Assembly: GCA_027493955.1 (NCBI GenBank)
Contig: JAOSJT010000001.1
Coordinates: 1,255,131 to 1,319,130 of the forward strand
DNA: 64,000 bases
Direction of reading: 5' to 3'
Source: Bacteroidia bacterium
GTDB taxonomy: Bacteria > Bacteroidota > Ignavibacteria > SZUA-365
The position numbers were made by a program, and so were the translations under genes. Numbering within the stretch: the stretch's first letter is position 1; the number at the start of each line of letters is the position of its first letter. Positions 47,375-55,590 of the stretch are shown piece by piece. Below the pieces are notes generated by a model. That model worked only from the letters and a program-made list of their open reading frames with translations. It was not told the origin of the DNA and did no database searches.

Positions 47375-47719
47375 AGTGTCGCCCTTCGGGCTGATGGCGA
47401 ATGTGCTGTGCGCGTGCCCCCTCAGCTGAAGCTGGTGGCTAGAGGAAGTGTCGCCCTTCGGGCTGGGGACGTCATCGCTGGGTGCGGAAGTCCCCCAACT
47501 GCCGTTGGGGGATACAGGAAGAGTCGCCCTTCGGGCTCTTCACACTTCACCCTTCACCCTTTACCTCCCTCGTGTCGCCCTTCGGGCTGATGGCGGATGT
47601 GCTGTGCGCGTGCCCCCCCAGCTGAAGCTGGGGGTTAGAGGAAGTGTCGCCCTTCGGGCTCTTCACCCTTTACCCTTCACCCTTTACCTCCCCGTGTCGC
47701 CCTTCGGGCTCTTCACCCT
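47375..47719. repeat. GTGTCGCCCTTCGGGCT / TTCACCCTTTACC repeat array, left part
   Basis: Units of GTGTCGCCCTTCGGGCTCTT followed by CACCCTTTACC runs. They alternate with hairpin modules such as CCCCCAGCTGAAGCTGGGGG (47614-47634) and CCCCCAACTGCCGTTGGGGG. The array is split by the IS3 element; its right part is at 49181-49632. All-frame open reading is a repeat artefact. 47195-47374 holds only GTTAAACG-type motifs. Confidence 0.85.
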
Positions 47720-47790
47720 GGAGTGTCCCGAAGAAATTGCACAGAGAGTTCCCCCCGGTTACCTTTTCAAAAATCACCGGAGACTCTGTC

Positions 47791-48105
47791 ATGGTAAAAC
47801 GAACCCACAAGAAATATGATGCTGCATTCAAACGATCCGTGATCGAGTTGGCTGACAGCACCGATCGACCCGACTCCGCGCTTGAGGAGGAGTTCGACCT
47901 CTATGATGGTGCGATACGCACCTGGCGCCGTCAGCTTCTGACACAGAAGTCAGAGGCCTTTCCCGGCAACGGAAATCTTCCCGCCAGTGATTCTGAACTG
48001 CATCGTCTTCGTCGAGAGAACGAGATTCTCCGTCAGGAGCGCGAAATATTAAAAAAAGCAGTGGCCATCTTCTCGCTACCCACGAAGCCCGGTTCCGGTT
48101 TATGA
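47791..48105 (+). CDS. IS3-family OrfA
   Basis: 104 residues. A helix-turn-helix of the transposase_8 type (MVKRTHKKYDAAFKRSVIEL ... ALEEEFDLYDGAIRTWRRQLL) is followed by a leucine-zipper-like helix (LHRLRRENEILRQEREILKKAV). Near its end lies an A7 run (48052-48058) where a -1 frameshift could yield the OrfAB transposase, as in other IS3 elements. The orfB frame is open across this point. Confidence 0.88.
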   Translation: MVKRTHKKYDAAFKRSVIELADSTDRPDSALEEEFDLYDGAIRTWRRQLLTQKSEAFPGNGNLPASDSELHRLRRENEILRQEREILKKAVAIFSLPTKPGSGL

Positions 48106-48983
48106 ACGCATATCGGAACGAGTTTAGCATCGAAAGGATGGCCAGCGTGCTCAACGTATCGTGCTCAGGCTATTATGCATGGCGTCGTCGTGGCGAGCAT
48201 GCACGCGCCGAGCGCACCGCAGCCTTCGATATGGCGGTCCGGGAGGAATTCCTGCGCAGGAAATCCAGCTACGGCGTACGTCGTCTCGTCAAAGCATTAC
48301 GCAAGCGCGGTTTCGCGTGCGGGCGGAGCCGCGTGGCGGCCAGCATGCGTCGGCAGGGATTGAAGGTCAAGCATCGTCGCCGTTTCATTACCACGACAGA
48401 TTCGAAGCATTCGTATACTGTCTCGCCAAATATGCTCGAACGCCAGTTTTCGGTCGATGCACCTGATACGGTGTGGGTGAGTGATATCACGTATTTGCGC
48501 AGCACCTCCGGATGGTTGTACTTGTGCGTGTTTATCGACCTGTTTTCCCGGAAGATCGTCGGCTGGGAGGTCAGCACATCGTTGCGCCATACAATGGTTG
48601 TGACCGCGTTCAAACGCGCGGCTTGGACGCGAAGCATACGTGCGGGGCTTATCGTGCATTCTGATCGCGGTGTGCAATACTGCTGCGAGGGATTCCGCAG
48701 TGCCCTGCGCCCTTACGGCAGCATTCAGAGCATGAGCAGGAAGGGTGATTGCTGGGATAACGCCGTCGCCGAGTCATTTTTTGCCACGTTGAAGAAGGAA
48801 ATGCCGGAAGGACTTCTCTTCGCGTCGGTGACGGATGCCCGGCGATACCTCTTCGAGTACATTGAACTTGAATACAATAATCAGCGTCTGCACAGCACGC
48901 TGGGCTATCATACGCCGCAGGAACACGAGAATCTGTATTGGTCGAAGAAACGTCTCGGCAATGACATGGAGCAGGCGGCATGA
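48102..48983 (+). CDS. IS3-family OrfB transposase
   Basis: 293 residues. HTH_21 region (RRKSSYGVRRLVKALRKRG) then an rve integrase core with DDE residues: VWVSDITYL (D), IVHSDRGVQY (D) and GDCWDNAVAESFFATLKKE (E). The end (YNNQRLHSTLGYHTPQEHE) is typical of IS3 OrfB. It overlaps orfA by 4 bp and is intact, so the element could be active. Confidence 0.93.
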   Translation: MNAYRNEFSIERMASVLNVSCSGYYAWRRRGEHARAERTAAFDMAVREEFLRRKSSYGVRRLVKALRKRGFACGRSRVAASMRRQGLKVKHRRRFITTTDSKHSYTVSPNMLERQFSVDAPDTVWVSDITYLRSTSGWLYLCVFIDLFSRKIVGWEVSTSLRHTMVVTAFKRAAWTRSIRAGLIVHSDRGVQYCCEGFRSALRPYGSIQSMSRKGDCWDNAVAESFFATLKKEMPEGLLFASVTDARRYLFEYIELEYNNQRLHSTLGYHTPQEHENLYWSKKRLGNDMEQAA

Positions 48984-49180: not shown

Positions 49181-49632
49181 TTACCCTTTACCCTTTACCT
49201 GCCCCGTGTCGCCCTTCGGGCTGATGGCGGATGTGCTGTGCGCGTGGCCCCTCAGCTGAAGCTGGGGGCTAGAGGAAGTGTCGCCCTTCGGGCTGGGGAC
49301 GTCATCGCTGGGTGCGGAAGTCCCCCAACTGCCGTTGGGGGATACAGGAAGTGTCACCCTTCGGGCTCTTCACCCTTCACCCTTCACCCTTTACCTCCCC
49401 CGTGTCGCCCTTCCCCCCGGGCTGACGCCCGGGGTTAGAGGAAGTGTCGCCCTTCGGGCTCTTCACCCTTTACCCTTTACCCTTTACCTCCCCCGTGACG
49501 CCCTTCGGGCTCTTCACCCTTCACCCTTCACCCTTCACCCTTTACCTCCCCCGTGTCGCCCTTCGGGCCCTTCACCCTTCACCCTTCACCCTTCACCCTT
49601 TACCTCCCCGTGTCGCCCTTCACCCTTCACTC
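49181..49632. repeat. GTGTCGCCCTTCGGGCT / TTCACCCTTTACC repeat array, right part
   Basis: Continues the array interrupted by the IS3 element, with CAGCTGAAGCTGGGGG and CCCCGGGCTGACGCCCGGGG hairpin modules and about six spacer-less TTCACCC units. Another array of the same kind lies at 54815-55590. Confidence 0.85.
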
Positions 49633-49697
49633 TTCCGGTTTTGCTCTTCCTCACGCAGGCGCTACATTGGAGTATCGTAACCGCTACCCGCAAGAGC

Positions 49698-50714
49698 ATG
49701 AACCTGCATCAAGCCCTGACAGATTTGCTTTCCGCGCAGTCCTCGCGTCAAGCGATGCATGAGATCGTGCGGACAGCTGTGGAGCATGCGCGCGGGTACA
49801 TTCGCTGGCTGGTATGGAATCGCGGGTACACGATCACCCCGCTCGGTATGTCTATGGACGATCTCGCGTATGATCTCATCGCCGAGCTCGTTTCGGATAT
49901 TGACGGTCCGGAGTTGCGGCGCCTTCAGACCGCGATACACGACGTGATGCAGCGCGATCCGGGCGTGAGCCTGGAAGCGGCGTTCAAGGTCATCTGCTAC
50001 CGTACGGTGCAAATTCATCTCGCCCGCCTGTTCATCGAAATCCATCCTGTGCGTGCGCGCCTGCTCCGGTCGCTGCGGCGTTTTGTAAAGGCGCAGAGCG
50101 GTCTGCAGCGCATCGAAAGTGTGAATGGTTTCTGGTACACGCGGGAGGACAGCGACGCGAAACTGGAACTGCCGCCGGCGCAACCTGATATGCTCGCGCA
50201 ATTCGCCGCCACGGTGGGCGGACACCCGCATCCCGTGCACGCGGTGCTGCTGCAGTTGCTCGACGGACTCGCCGCCTATCCGGAATTGCGGCAGGCGGTG
50301 TTCGAGGACGACGTGCTCGACATCACATTGCGCATCATTCAGAGTGATCAGGTGGCGGCCACGCCCGAGACGGATAGTACGGACGGAGCCGAGCAGATAG
50401 ACACGGATGCGGTGCTGCAATCCGTGCTCGGTGTGCTCGACGAGTTGCGGACCTGGGTGTACGACTCCTATGTGCGGCGGAACAAACTCCGCGAAGCCGA
50501 AGCGGATGTGATGCTTGCCGCTGTGCACGCCTACGTCAACGATCTCGCCGCAGGTCAGGATCACGGACACCTGTACTATCTTCAGCAGCGCATTCCGGGT
50601 TTGACACAGGAGGCGTACCGCGAGCGGTATCGAAACACCTACGAGTACATTGTGCGGCGTGTTTTCACCGCGGCACGACAAAGGCTTCAATGTATTCTTG
50701 AAGTGAAAGACTGA
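49698..50714 (+). CDS. Unknown protein, first gene of a three-gene cassette
   Basis: 338 residues from the ATG at 49698; the upstream continuation of the frame is only repeat sequence. The family is not one I can name. It is helical, with acidic-hydrophobic segments (DDLAYDLIAELVSDIDGPELRRLQTAIHDVM) and a basic helix (RARLLRSLRRFVKAQ), and the overall texture is somewhat like sigma-factor-type proteins; that is only an impression. It lies 8 bp before a gene with an anti-sigma-type zinc motif and is co-directional with the Lon-like/LamG gene, so the three probably work together. Confidence 0.7.
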   Translation: MNLHQALTDLLSAQSSRQAMHEIVRTAVEHARGYIRWLVWNRGYTITPLGMSMDDLAYDLIAELVSDIDGPELRRLQTAIHDVMQRDPGVSLEAAFKVICYRTVQIHLARLFIEIHPVRARLLRSLRRFVKAQSGLQRIESVNGFWYTREDSDAKLELPPAQPDMLAQFAATVGGHPHPVHAVLLQLLDGLAAYPELRQAVFEDDVLDITLRIIQSDQVAATPETDSTDGAEQIDTDAVLQSVLGVLDELRTWVYDSYVRRNKLREAEADVMLAAVHAYVNDLAAGQDHGHLYYLQQRIPGLTQEAYRERYRNTYEYIVRRVFTAARQRLQCILEVKD

Positions 50715-50722
50715 CGGCCATT

Positions 50723-51196
50723 ATGCCGAATCATCATCATATCGACGGAAGCGCGCATCTTGGCACCGCCCGGTTGCTGGATCTGGCGAACGCGAACGGC
50801 ACGCATCCGCATCTGGACAACTGCGCGTTTTGCCGCGAACAGTACGAGGCGCTCATCGCCATCGCACGTTTCGTCGCTCCGGATGTCGACAGCGCGGTGG
50901 CGGATGGCGGCACGGGGTATCGCCTTGCAGCGCACAGCGAGACGGAGACGCAAGCCGAACTGCTGCTGCGGCAGACCTGGTACCTCGACGGCGGCAATGT
51001 GCTGCTGCGCGTTTTCGAGGAGCGCGCGCACGACCGCCTCGTGGCGTACGTCATCTGCGATCCGCAGCGCCTTCCCCTGCTCTCTTTCCGCTTCAGCGGC
51101 GTCGACGGTGTTTTTCATCCGGCACACGACGGCAGCTTCGTCATCGGCGGCAGCGACATTGACATCGAACCGATGACGGTTTCCATCGACATGTGA
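50723..51196 (+). CDS. Small protein with HxxxCxxC zinc motif
   Basis: 157 residues. Near residue 35, HLDNCAFC fits the H-x3-C-x2-C zinc motif of anti-sigma factors (ZAS/zf-HC2). The rest (LLLRQTWYLDGGNVLLRVFEERAHDRLVAYVI ... FVIGGSDIDIEPMTVSIDM) is beta-rich, and there is no membrane segment. The second gene of the cassette, 9 bp before the large membrane protein gene. A regulatory partner role for the first protein is inferred only. Confidence 0.7.
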   Translation: MPNHHHIDGSAHLGTARLLDLANANGTHPHLDNCAFCREQYEALIAIARFVAPDVDSAVADGGTGYRLAAHSETETQAELLLRQTWYLDGGNVLLRVFEERAHDRLVAYVICDPQRLPLLSFRFSGVDGVFHPAHDGSFVIGGSDIDIEPMTVSIDM

Positions 51197-51205
51197 GGAT
51201 CCTCT

Positions 51206-54200
51206 GTGAACGCGGACGATGCGCTCTCGTCGATGAGCACTCCCCTCGAGCTCGACCTCACAGCCCGCCATGCGACACGCCAGCTTCGCAGGACCACTTC
51301 CCCGCTGCGCCGCTTTGCTATACTGACCGATTTTTTCGCACAGACCGAACATCTTCCCGCAATCTGGACAGCGTCCTACTATCGAGCCCTGTACCCGGCA
51401 CTCAGCGCCTGCGTTCGGCACGCGTATGTGCGCTGGGGCGCTCCGGCGCGCTGGTTGCGCACGCTCCGTATACTGGAACGTGTGCGCGAGAGTACGTGGG
51501 CCCGCGAAACGCCGGCTTTCGATGAGACGATAGAGACGGTACGGGAAAAATGCTGCGCCGCATTGGCATGCGTGGGCGCCGGGCGTGAGATGCATACACT
51601 GGTGCGGGAGTACGATTCCTCGCTCGCGGATGTGAGCGACGCGCTCCCGGCCCGGATGCTCAATGCCGTGACACTCGGTCAGAATCCTGTCGCGGTATTC
51701 ATCTCAGAGTGTTATCCGATCGGGGACGCACCGCCCTTCCTCGTGGACGCGCAGGCATCGCTGGAAAGCGCCCTTGCGGATGCGGTCATGCCGGGTGTGC
51801 TGCTGGTGGATACCGGTGAGCCGGGGACACAGATCACCGGCGTCGTCCTGCATCCGGAAATCAGTATCACCCCGTCCGCGCAATGGCGGGCACAGTTCGG
51901 AAATCAGCTCGCGGAAGACGAGGGGAGCGCGCATCGCCAGCTGCGCACGGCACTCGAGGCGGCGCGCAGCACTGTGGAGAAACATTTCGCGACGGAGTTG
52001 CCGCCAAGGCGCGCTTCCGTGCACTTTCCCGATCAGCATGCCGCATATTCCGGGCAGTCTATGGGTCTGGCGGTCGCGCTCGCGCTCACGGAAAAGCTGC
52101 AGCAGCGCTTCAACCGGAAACAGCTCTGGGCGATGCAAACAGGGATCTGCTGCACTGGTGGCGTACACGAAGACGGGCGCGTGCTGCCCGTCGCGGAGGA
52201 ATCGCTGAAGGCGAAGGTGGAGGCCGCGCTGTTTTCTCCGTGCGTGGCCCTGGTGCTGCACAGCGCTCTGCTGGAACGTGCGCAGGAACATCTCCAGACA
52301 TTGCGCGTCTCCTGGCCCGGTGCGCGTCTCGCATTGTACGGGGTGACCTCGCTGGACGATTGCGTTTCTTTGCCCGGCATTGTGCGCGTTATTGAACGTA
52401 ATCCCTACGACAGACTGCTGACCTTCGCGAAGCGCAAATCCACCGAGCTGTTGCTCGCGGGCATTATTCTGTTGCTGCTCACCGTGGGATATTTCTGGTG
52501 GAAAGCTCAGTACGGCTATCCGGACCTGGAATACAGCAGCGGAGCGCAAATAGGACAAAATGCTCTGGTGCATAATCCCCGCCGCGCCTCAGACTGGCAG
52601 TTCAGAGATTTCGAGGAAGTGCGCGCAGCGATTCTCGACTTCGGGGATCTCGAGATCGGCGCTGATGCCACCCGCAATCTTTGGCTCTGGAACATGACGC
52701 CATCGACACTCGACGTGGCATTGGGTATCGAAGGTGAACAGGCGGACCAATGGTACATCAGTTGGAATGGCGGCGGGCAGCAGATTCCCGCTACCGACTC
52801 TCTCCGCGTGATGATCAAATTCGCGCCGACGCGCAACGCCACCGGTAGCCGGGCGCGTTTTACGGTGCGCGACGCGCATAGCGGCGAGTTGCTGAGCTCC
52901 ATCGCATTGCACGGAGCCGCGGGGCCGCCACTGCCCGGCGGCTACGCACTTCGCTTCGACGGCGTGGATGATATGCTGCATTTCGGAGAAGACGCTATCG
53001 CTTTCGCGCGTGATGAGGGCACGCTCGAATTCTGGTTTCGCCTGGATTCGATCAGCGGTTGTGTGCTCTCCAACAATCGGAACCTGCCGTACGGGCCCGC
53101 CTCGCAAAATATGACCATCGAAATACGCGACACGACTATCAGCTATCATATCGGCAATCACAGAGGTGACGTGCGTCTCGGCGGCAAGTTCCTGAACTCC
53201 ACCGGCATCTGGCACCATCTGGCTGTGGCCTTTTCGCGCAAAGACCGAGGTATTCAAATTGTGCTCGATGGAGAACTGATCAAGGATGTTTCGGAAGAAT
53301 TCATCATCGAAGCCGTAACAAAACCGTACGTCACCTTCGGCGCGTACTACAACGGCGAAAGTCTGCAAAATCCCTTTCGCGGCGCTTTGGATGAAATCCG
53401 CATGTGGGACCGGGCTCTGTCCGCCGACACAATACGCGCGCGTATGCACAGCAAGCTAAGCGCGCTGACACCCGGTCTCCTAGGGTACTGGGACTTCGAT
53501 GTGATCGCGGAGGTGTCCGCATTCAACGGGAACGAACGAACGCAGGACGGCCAATTGCTGCACCGGCCCGCGCATATTCGCTCCGCCGTCCCACTGACGC
53601 CGGCTCCTGGTGCTGATGTCCGTCTTATCCGGAAGACGAAAGGCGCGACGGCCCTGGAACTGCAGCCGTTCCGCTGGCTTCAGTGCGGCACGGATCCGGT
53701 TGAGGGATCGCCGGAGCGGAGCTACGCCATACGGTATTTCCGTCGGCCGGGGAGCAGACGCGCCGTTTTTTCGGTGATGAATCAGGATGCGTATGTCGCG
53801 GTGAGGGATTCGTTCGCGATGGTAGTGGGGTTTGAGCATGTCACGCTGCCCGTACGGCAGGGATGGAATTCCGTGATCGCCACTGTTGACAGAGAGCGCA
53901 TCGAGGTGCTGGTTAACGGCAGCGTCGCCATGACGGGCACAGCAGACCTGCTCAAGCGCGGGCCGGGGTACCGCTATGAAGGTCTGCAAGTCGGGATTTT
54001 CCACGACAAGTACAATACCTTTGGTCCCAAATATTACGATAACACCCGTCCCGCATTACTGCGTACGCTCGCTGTGGCTGATTTTTGTGTCTGGAAAAAG
54101 CGCCTGACTCCCGCCGAGCTCGCAGTGTACACGCAGGGCGGTATCCCGCGTGACCGTCTCGCCGCGCACTGGCTACTCGATACGCTGCCGGACAACAACG

Positions 54201-54265
54201 GGAACCTGCACGATAGCGTGGGCGGCCATCTGCTGCATCTCTGGCGCTATCTCCCGTGGATGTAA
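51206..54265 (+). CDS. Membrane protein with Lon-like protease fold and LamG-like domains
   Basis: 1019 residues with a GTG start preceded by GAGGAT. Residues ~160-370 resemble the Lon proteolytic domain: YSGQSMGLAVALAL with Ser285, then GGVHEDGRVLPVAEESLKAKVEAA with Lys335, like the Ser-Lys dyad region of Lon (PSAG...; RGxVLPIGGLKEK). No AAA+ domain is attached. One membrane segment (LLLAGIILLLLTVGYFWW, ~414-431) separates this from an exported part. That part has an Ig-like stretch and a LamG/concanavalin-like domain at ~575-710 (LRFDGVDDMLHF ... EGTLEFWFRL ... ALDEIRMWDRALS), with a second diverged one at ~790-1000. The combination is unusual. Protease activity is predicted, not shown. Confidence 0.78.
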   Translation: MNADDALSSMSTPLELDLTARHATRQLRRTTSPLRRFAILTDFFAQTEHLPAIWTASYYRALYPALSACVRHAYVRWGAPARWLRTLRILERVRESTWARETPAFDETIETVREKCCAALACVGAGREMHTLVREYDSSLADVSDALPARMLNAVTLGQNPVAVFISECYPIGDAPPFLVDAQASLESALADAVMPGVLLVDTGEPGTQITGVVLHPEISITPSAQWRAQFGNQLAEDEGSAHRQLRTALEAARSTVEKHFATELPPRRASVHFPDQHAAYSGQSMGLAVALALTEKLQQRFNRKQLWAMQTGICCTGGVHEDGRVLPVAEESLKAKVEAALFSPCVALVLHSALLERAQEHLQTLRVSWPGARLALYGVTSLDDCVSLPGIVRVIERNPYDRLLTFAKRKSTELLLAGIILLLLTVGYFWWKAQYGYPDLEYSSGAQIGQNALVHNPRRASDWQFRDFEEVRAAILDFGDLEIGADATRNLWLWNMTPSTLDVALGIEGEQADQWYISWNGGGQQIPATDSLRVMIKFAPTRNATGSRARFTVRDAHSGELLSSIALHGAAGPPLPGGYALRFDGVDDMLHFGEDAIAFARDEGTLEFWFRLDSISGCVLSNNRNLPYGPASQNMTIEIRDTTISYHIGNHRGDVRLGGKFLNSTGIWHHLAVAFSRKDRGIQIVLDGELIKDVSEEFIIEAVTKPYVTFGAYYNGESLQNPFRGALDEIRMWDRALSADTIRARMHSKLSALTPGLLGYWDFDVIAEVSAFNGNERTQDGQLLHRPAHIRSAVPLTPAPGADVRLIRKTKGATALELQPFRWLQCGTDPVEGSPERSYAIRYFRRPGSRRAVFSVMNQDAYVAVRDSFAMVVGFEHVTLPVRQGWNSVIATVDRERIEVLVNGSVAMTGTADLLKRGPGYRYEGLQVGIFHDKYNTFGPKYYDNTRPALLRTLAVADFCVWKKRLTPAELAVYTQGGIPRDRLAAHWLLDTLPDNNGNLHDSVGGHLLHLWRYLPWM

Positions 54266-54322: not shown

Positions 54323-54727
54323 CTATGCCGGCGTTTGTGCGTCCCCTGCCTCTCCATCGTCAACGTCCGATACTTCCGCGGCGTCGGCGTCGTGTACGGA
54401 CCGGCTCACGGTGATGCTTCGGATCGCTGCAGCGCCGTCCGCCTCGATGAGATAGTAGTACATGCCTTCCGGGTAAGCGGCGACCTCCAGGACAACGGTA
54501 TGTCTCCCCTTCGGATATGCACCGAGCTTTCGCTCGGTCATGATCGTTCCGAGATTGTTGTAGAGTTTCAATGAAACGTTCGCGGATTTCCGCAGTTCAT
54601 ACGCAACGGTGGCTGTATCCGATGCCGGTTCGGGCGAGTGGCGATAGACGATGAGCGTATTGTTCAGCATGCGTTCTTCTCCGCGCGATAGATTCCACAC
54701 CTCTGTTATCACAGGTATTGCGGCCAT
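54323..54727 (-). CDS. FlgD/T9SS C-terminal-domain-like fragment
   Basis: 134 residues. VAYELRKSANVSLKLYNNLGTIMTERKLG ... GRHTVVLEVAAYPEGMYYYLIEADG ... ITVSR has the pattern of the FlgD-like or type IX secretion sorting domains that end large secreted proteins of Bacteroidota relatives. There is no signal peptide and no upstream domain, and an acidic tail of ~28 residues follows. It may be the 3-prime remnant of a larger secreted protein, or a stand-alone small protein. Confidence 0.5.
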   Translation of the reverse strand: MAAIPVITEVWNLSRGEERMLNNTLIVYRHSPEPASDTATVAYELRKSANVSLKLYNNLGTIMTERKLGAYPKGRHTVVLEVAAYPEGMYYYLIEADGAAAIRSITVSRSVHDADAAEVSDVDDGEAGDAQTPA

Positions 54728-54814: not shown

Positions 54815-55590
54815 TGCGGAAGTCCCCCAACTACCGTTCGAGGTTACAGGTAGTGTCGCCCTTCGGGCTCTTCACCCTTCACCCTTCACCCTTTACCTCC
54901 CCGTGTCGCCCTTCGGGCTCTTCACCCTTTACCCTTCACCCTTTACCTCCCCGTGTCGCCCTTCGGGCTGATGGCGGATGTGCTGTGCGCGTGGCCCCCG
55001 GGCTGACGCCCGGGGTTAGAGGAAGTGTCGCCCTTCGGGCTCTTCACCCTTCACCCTTCACCCTTTACCTCCCCCGTGTCGCCCTTCGGGCTCTTCACCC
55101 TTCACCCTTCACCCTTTACCTCCCCCGTGTCGCCCTTCGGGCTCTTCACCCTTCACCCTTTACCTCCCCCGTGTCGCCCTTCGGGCCCTTCACCCTTCAC
55201 CCTTCACCCTTTACCTCCCCCGTGTCGCCCTTCGGGCTCTTCACCCTTCACCCTTCACCCTTTACCTCCCCGTGTCGCCCTTCGGGCTCTTCACCCTTCA
55301 CCCTTCACCCTTTACCTCCCCGTGTCGCCCTTCGGGCTCTTCACCCTTTACCCTTCACCCTTTACCTCCCCCGTGTCGCCCTTCGGGCTCTTCACCCTTC
55401 ACTCTTCACCCTTTACCTCCCCGTGTCGCCCTTCGGGCTCTTCACCCTTTACCCTTCACGCTTTACCTCCCCCGTGTCGCCCTTCGGGCTCTTCACCCTT
55501 CACCCTTCACCCTTTACCTCCCCCGTGTCGCCCTTCGGGCTCTTCGCCCTTTACCCTTCACCCTTTACCTCCAGCTGTCGCCCTGCGCAC
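54815..55590. repeat. GTGTCGCCCTTCGGGCT / TTCACCCTTTACC repeat array
   Basis: About 13 direct repeats with a period of mostly 42-51 bp: GTGTCGCCCTTCGGGCTCTT, then two to three CACCCTT units and TACCTCCCC. It contains one GGCCCCCGGGCTGACGCCCG hairpin module (about 54995). The period differs by whole TTCACCC units, indicating slippage. It has no unique spacers, so it is not CRISPR. TTTAACGTTTCACGTTTAAC follows at 55600-55630. Confidence 0.9.

Follow-up and report, generated by a model that had tools for sequence, protein, structure and literature searches.

Motor-less Lon domains are known as signalling proteases from one CRISPR pathway. In that pathway the Lon domain of CalpL, which has no motor, is activated by a sensor and cuts the anti-sigma factor CalpT (PMC11417357, PMC12751052), and the authors of that work think that ClpXP then frees CalpS (PMC11417357, PMC12751052). 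ClpXP of Clostridium thermocellum degrades anti-sigma fragments that end in X-Ala-Ala (PMC12203970). Among the Lon proteases themselves, the catalytic dyad of the E. coli enzyme pairs Ser679 with Lys722, and LonB carries the serine motif [E/D]GDSA[S/T] (PMC2605481). No earlier description of a transmembrane receptor joined to a signalling Lon protease was found in the literature that we searched, outside which most subscription journals lie.

Here we describe a three-gene operon, A-B-C, in a 64,000-nucleotide stretch of a Bacteroidia bacterium genome (contig JAOSJT010000001.1, positions 1,255,131 to 1,319,130), which we call the window. By analogy, the closest worked-out system to this operon is CalpL/CalpT/CalpS, with the input here predicted to lie outside the membrane. 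The initial annotation had dealt with gene C alone and had not seen that A (helical) and B (zinc-finger anti-sigma-like) precede it in a conserved operon of three genes. The three genes are separated by gaps of 8 and 9 bases in the window:

49698..50714, + strand: gene A, an unannotated helical protein of about 338 aa (conserved position; AlphaFold model)
50723..51196, + strand: gene B, a 157-aa zinc-type anti-sigma-like protein with a C-terminal beta-rich domain (HLDNCAFC motif; weak profile matches)
51206..54265, + strand: gene C, a putative Lon-TM-LamG receptor protease of 1019 aa (ORF, Pfam, AlphaFold model, structural alignment)

Conservation of this arrangement was assessed in the 76 loci with enough sequence for the position of A to be tested. 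In 53 of these, gene A preceded C in the same orientation, and in 10 others it was present at a different place in the locus; the remaining 13 showed no A gene nearby.

Related minisatellite arrays flank the operon on both sides (49338-49635 and 54853-55584, with about 3 and 14 copies). The unit is 51 bp long (GTGTCGCCCTTCGGGCTCTTCACC...) and translates as SPFTLHPLPP repeats, and the array extends the open reading frame of gene A upstream, past its likely start. An IS3-type two-ORF transposase (HTH_Tnp_1 and rve) occupies 47644-48983 of the window, just upstream of the operon. Just after gene C, 54323-54727 (-) encodes a 134-aa protein with a sub-threshold signal for a Por secretion/CHU_C-type sorting domain.

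The open reading frame of gene C at 51206-54265 (+) was confirmed as real, with a GTG start. The initial annotation had read its product as a Lon proteolytic domain without an AAA+ module, joined by a single membrane segment to an exported LamG-type region, a reading that would have failed if the predicted structure had not been the Lon protease fold, or if homologues had kept neither the Ser nor the Lys. An AlphaFold2 model of C (mean pLDDT 78, built on a 12-row alignment), considered with Pfam matches, profile searches and hydropathy, gave the following layout:

51242..51781, + strand: N-terminal helical region, residues about 13-192, without AAA+ motifs (AlphaFold secondary structure; no Walker A)
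51764..52405, + strand: Lon proteolytic domain, residues 187-400 (structural match to Lon domains, Z about 20; E 7e-10 in a profile search of the PDB)
52058..52060, + strand: codon of the catalytic-position Ser285 (S in 90/90 rows)
52214..52216, + strand: codon of the catalytic-position Lys337, not Lys335 (K in 90/91 rows; invariant in a 33-row alignment)
52439..52495, + strand: transmembrane segment, residues about 412-430 (hydropathy peak of 1.93 at 412; model helix 412-435)
52622..52921, + strand: Ig-like domain of ASH/Hydin type, residues about 473-572 (Pfam matches to ASH and Cep192_D4, weak in C and stronger in relatives; model beta strands)
52937..53602, + strand: first LamG/pentraxin domain, residues 578-799 (LamG_3 62.7 bits; Z 22.7 to PAPP-A and 21.1 to CRP)
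53618..54262, + strand: second beta-sandwich, probably LamG-like, residues about 805-1019 (AlphaFold strands at lower confidence; relatives L099, L104 and L016 have two LamG stretches)

In Pfam searches LamG_3 was clear in C, whilst Lon_C scored 14.2 bits, below its cut-off of 21.1. A profile of 33 relatives of C searched against the PDB had Lon of A. fulgidus as its best match (E 7e-10), and all matches below E = 0.25 were Lon. In the model, residues 187-400 aligned with LONP1 (6x27) at Z 20.7 and rmsd 2.6 over 187 residues, and with E. coli Lon (1rr9) at Z 20.2 and rmsd 2.4 over 177 residues, with 21% identity. The predicted structure is thus the Lon proteolytic fold.

Conservation of the dyad was counted on 91 near-full-length aligned rows from the class and the phylum. 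Position 285 was Ser in every one of the 90 rows that had a residue there, and position 337 was Lys in 90 of 91; among the well-populated positions of the Lon domain these two are the best conserved. Across all 94 match rows, each residue was found in 91, the rest being mostly gaps. Ser285 in GQSMG had been proposed correctly, and with both residues kept in homologues the reading as a Lon protease was not refuted. The lysine had been placed in the right segment, LKAK, with the wrong number: position 335 is variable (K 19, R 17, E 16 and others) and is ruled out as the catalytic Lys, and the conserved residue is Lys337, the second K of LKAK. In the PDB profile search the dyad of C fell on G-x-S-A-S and KIEAA in A. 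fulgidus Lon, and GQSMG, like the forms seen in relatives such as EGSSAG (L053), fits the LonB-type serine motif scheme. By fold and dyad C belongs to the Lon (S16) proteolytic-domain superfamily; its catalytic activity is inferred. The sole Lys exception is a divergent copy of C (L141 3971-6205, -), which adjoins a tandem partner and has kept the Ser and lost the Lys; it is possibly an inactive paralogue.

The other parts of the annotated architecture were also supported. No AAA domain was found in C by Pfam, and Walker A gave two chance matches among 92 C-family proteins and is not conserved in the family. The fit of the N-terminal helices of the model to Lon ATPase regions was poor, with an rmsd of about 6. 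Hydropathy and the model helix agreed on one membrane segment, and K and R residues around it averaged 3.6 on the N side versus 1.1 on the C side in 90 members. As positive charge lies on the N side of this helix, C is predicted from sequence to have an N-in topology, with the Lon domain in the cytoplasm and the Ig-like and sugar-binding-like LamG domains exported. The LamG-type assignment of the outer region rests on both the Pfam score and the structural similarity of the model to PAPP-A.

Members of the C family were found in 58 of 294 sampled genomes of the class and 38 of 395 of the phylum, and the hosts recovered in one collection scan were Ignavibacteria/Bacteroidetes metagenome-assembled genomes. 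Full-length members exist in the same taxonomic family, and one full-length relative shares 46% identity with C. A paralogue with 32% identity lies in the same genome, in a second complete A-B-C operon (G000 C1 2695206-2701250; L002/L036). In a sister clade, the proteins are of about 700-850 residues and carry exported FG-GAP/propeller-type repeats instead of LamG. The LamG and FG-GAP types fell on two sides of one branch of a Lon-domain tree, with support of 80, so that the inner module is constant and the exported sensor differs.

Tandem duplications of gene C were observed in L044, L045, L048, L051, L092, L124 and L126, mostly behind one A-B pair and with up to four copies in L092, which suggests that several receptors feed one regulator. 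The genome of the window also encodes two ordinary full-length Lon proteases elsewhere, and a role for C as the housekeeping Lon was therefore rejected.

Two short features were located in protein B:

50810..50833, + strand: H-x3-C-x2-C zinc-binding anti-sigma signature, B residues 30-37 (sequence)
50924..50932, + strand: Leu-Ala-Ala in the linker, B residues 68-70, the proposed cleavage/degron site (conservation; role inferred)

The HLDNCAFC sequence of B conforms to H-x3-C-x2-C, the signature of zinc anti-sigma factors. Of 57 B candidates, 29 had this motif within their first 80 residues; at about half of the loci the zinc ligands are missing from a B of similar length and layout. A profile of 35 B proteins searched against the PDB gave only weak matches, to RsiW (E 0.1) and to 3hug_B (E 0.71), a chain from an anti-sigma complex, and a relative matched zf-HC2 below threshold. 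Matches of B to a designed protein and to galectins were judged to be chance or fold-level only. We provisionally regard B as an anti-sigma-like protein. It appears to be soluble. Its helical and beta parts are joined by a linker that is variable apart from the Leu-Ala-Ala (L in 33, A in 32 and A in 35 of 35 proteins). It is plausible that this is a cut site that would leave a ClpXP-type tail, a role that is inferred; the same residues could instead form a buried strand.

For protein A, 65 homologues were collected in related loci with an iterated HMM. Shortened versions of about 235 aa, missing the C-terminal third, occur in L111, L113-L116 and L118. Pfam detected no sigma domain in 13 A proteins, and comparison of A with the 16 ECF sigma factors of the same genome by hhalign gave a probability of 0.3%, so that a sigma identity for A is unsupported by sequence. 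Foldseek with A returned nothing significant (best E 0.66). Matches to Drt3a (E 0.0097) and JetA (E 2e-4, 64 residues) were judged to be chance or fold-level only. The model of A is of modest confidence (pLDDT 79, pTM 0.42). About 38 of its best 50 structural rows were sigma chains, many on residues 1-116, where the comparison with sigma region 2 gave Z 5-7; the C-terminal part matched lambda Q at Z 7.5, and both values are within noise for helical models. The order of A and B is that seen at the zf-HC2 matches in this genome, all nine of which lie directly downstream of a Sigma70_r2 gene. A is possibly sigma-like, by position and a structural hint only, and its role as a sigma-like regulator is inferred without any sequence match.

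The logic of CalpL, CalpT and CalpS, together with the degradation of X-Ala-Ala fragments by ClpXP, led us to propose a route from ligand to regulator. The exported LamG region of C (or the FG-GAP/propeller-like region in the sister clade) would bind a ligand or a surface, and this binding would alter how the ATP-independent Lon Ser-Lys domain assembles in the cytoplasm. Once activated, the Lon domain would cut B, most likely at the Leu-Ala-Ala of the linker between its zinc helical and beta domains. The cut would leave an anti-sigma fragment with a C-terminal LAA, which ClpXP could remove, and this removal would free A to act as a transcription regulator, sigma-like or otherwise. That an outside signal sensed by C leads to gene activation through cutting of the anti-sigma-like B is probable, with the proteolysis of B inferred. 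For the full statement, that C is a single-pass receptor protease which cuts B at the Leu-Ala-Ala and so frees A under the control of an outside ligand, belief and doubt are evenly balanced. Counting against it are the absence of any sequence similarity between A and sigma factors, the weak structural match of A to sigma region 2, the missing zinc ligands of B at about half of the loci, the 13 loci without a nearby A gene and the chance that the Leu-Ala-Ala is a buried strand. The initial annotation had already suggested that C couples binding outside to proteolysis inside; this is plausible, is strengthened by the A-B-C operon, and remains an inference, as does control by a ligand. We put forward only tentatively, and with somewhat more doubt than belief, that C represents a new class of one-protein transmembrane receptor proteases, in which an exported LamG or propeller region directly switches an ATP-independent Lon domain that cuts a soluble B and so frees a highly diverged, previously unrecognised sigma-like family, A.

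One rival to this route concerns the nature of A. C could cut B as proposed, but A could be an unrelated helical effector, for example an enzyme, a nucleic-acid binder or an adaptor, held inactive by B. The absence of a sigma signal by Pfam and profile comparison would fit this, as would structural matches under the level expected by chance for helical bundles. Set against it are the predominance of sigma chains among the best structural rows of A and the lambda Q rows at its C-terminal part, as well as the fact that the anti-sigma-type zf-HC2 matches in this genome are always beside sigma genes. We consider a non-sigma effector unlikely, though it keeps a real share of the possibilities.

Other explanations concern C itself. 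If its Lon domain served quality control as a membrane or cytosolic protease like archaeal LonB, the exported region would be a mere tether and the neighbouring genes accessory. The single membrane anchor and the closest PDB profile match, to the A. fulgidus Lon proteolytic domain, are compatible with such a role. A protein of this kind would, however, have no AAA+ motor with which to unfold substrates, in a genome that already has its two ordinary Lon genes, and both the difference between LamG and propeller regions and the frequent anti-sigma-like linkage suit signalling better, which makes quality control improbable. Still harder to credit, and in our view very improbable, is that the Lon-like domain is no protease at all, its dyad being structural and the domain acting as a scaffold or peptide-binding switch that holds B. 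There are no activity data for C that would exclude this, and the domain is motor-less and, at about 21% identity to E. coli Lon, very divergent. Yet across members whose identity is often as low as about 20%, Ser and Lys are the two best conserved of the well-populated positions, a pattern not easily accounted for unless the domain is catalytic. We retain the receptor-protease reading, in which C cuts B, as the preferred one.

If this reading is true, a membrane-receptor form spread through the phylum would suggest that cleavage of anti-sigma factors by sensor-driven Lon domains is a general signalling scheme, and would provide a one-step path from an outside signal to transcription and a role for two unannotated conserved gene families. 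The tentative class of one-protein receptor proteases would, in addition, mirror the CRISPR Calp pathway with its sensor turned outwards, and would offer a route other than intramembrane proteolysis in several steps.

The Calp system and the A-B-C operon have in common a Lon Ser-Lys domain without AAA+ that is fused to a sensor, a neighbour of anti-sigma type (provisionally so for B), and a three-gene logic. They differ in the input, as CalpL senses cyclic tetra-adenylate through a cytoplasmic SAVED domain, whereas the sensor side of C lies beyond a membrane segment, in an exported LamG or propeller-like region. No SAVED match was found in C by Pfam, NCBIfam or PADLOC, so the SAVED criterion for Calp is unmet, and no CalpL chain was among the PDB profile matches of the C family. 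They also differ in the output, CalpS being an ECF sigma factor and A having no sequence match to sigma.

Amongst Lon proteases, LonC (MtaLonC) also has a Lon proteolytic domain without ATPase motifs, but its N-terminal part is degenerate and AAA+-like and it has no membrane segment or exported region (PMC3391209), in contrast to the single membrane helix of C. Archaeal LonB, the closest PDB profile match, is membrane-anchored like C, but by membrane segments inserted in an AAA+ module (PMC3391209), whereas C lacks AAA+ and has a single membrane helix that follows the protease domain. The other features that define LonA, LonB and LonC set C apart from all three.

B may resemble the class I zinc anti-sigma factors such as RsiW in its N-terminal H-x3-C-x2-C helical domain, and its profile matches to them are weak; unlike them, it appears soluble and has a C-terminal beta domain, and the membrane anchor is found in C. 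The proposed route would also resemble the RsgI/RsiV/RseA-type systems, where a signal from outside finally leads to loss of an anti-sigma factor and X-Ala-Ala fragments are ClpXP substrates (PMC12203970). In those systems the membrane-spanning protein is the anti-sigma factor, and several proteases act one after another, whereas here the receptor and the protease would be one protein and B would be soluble.
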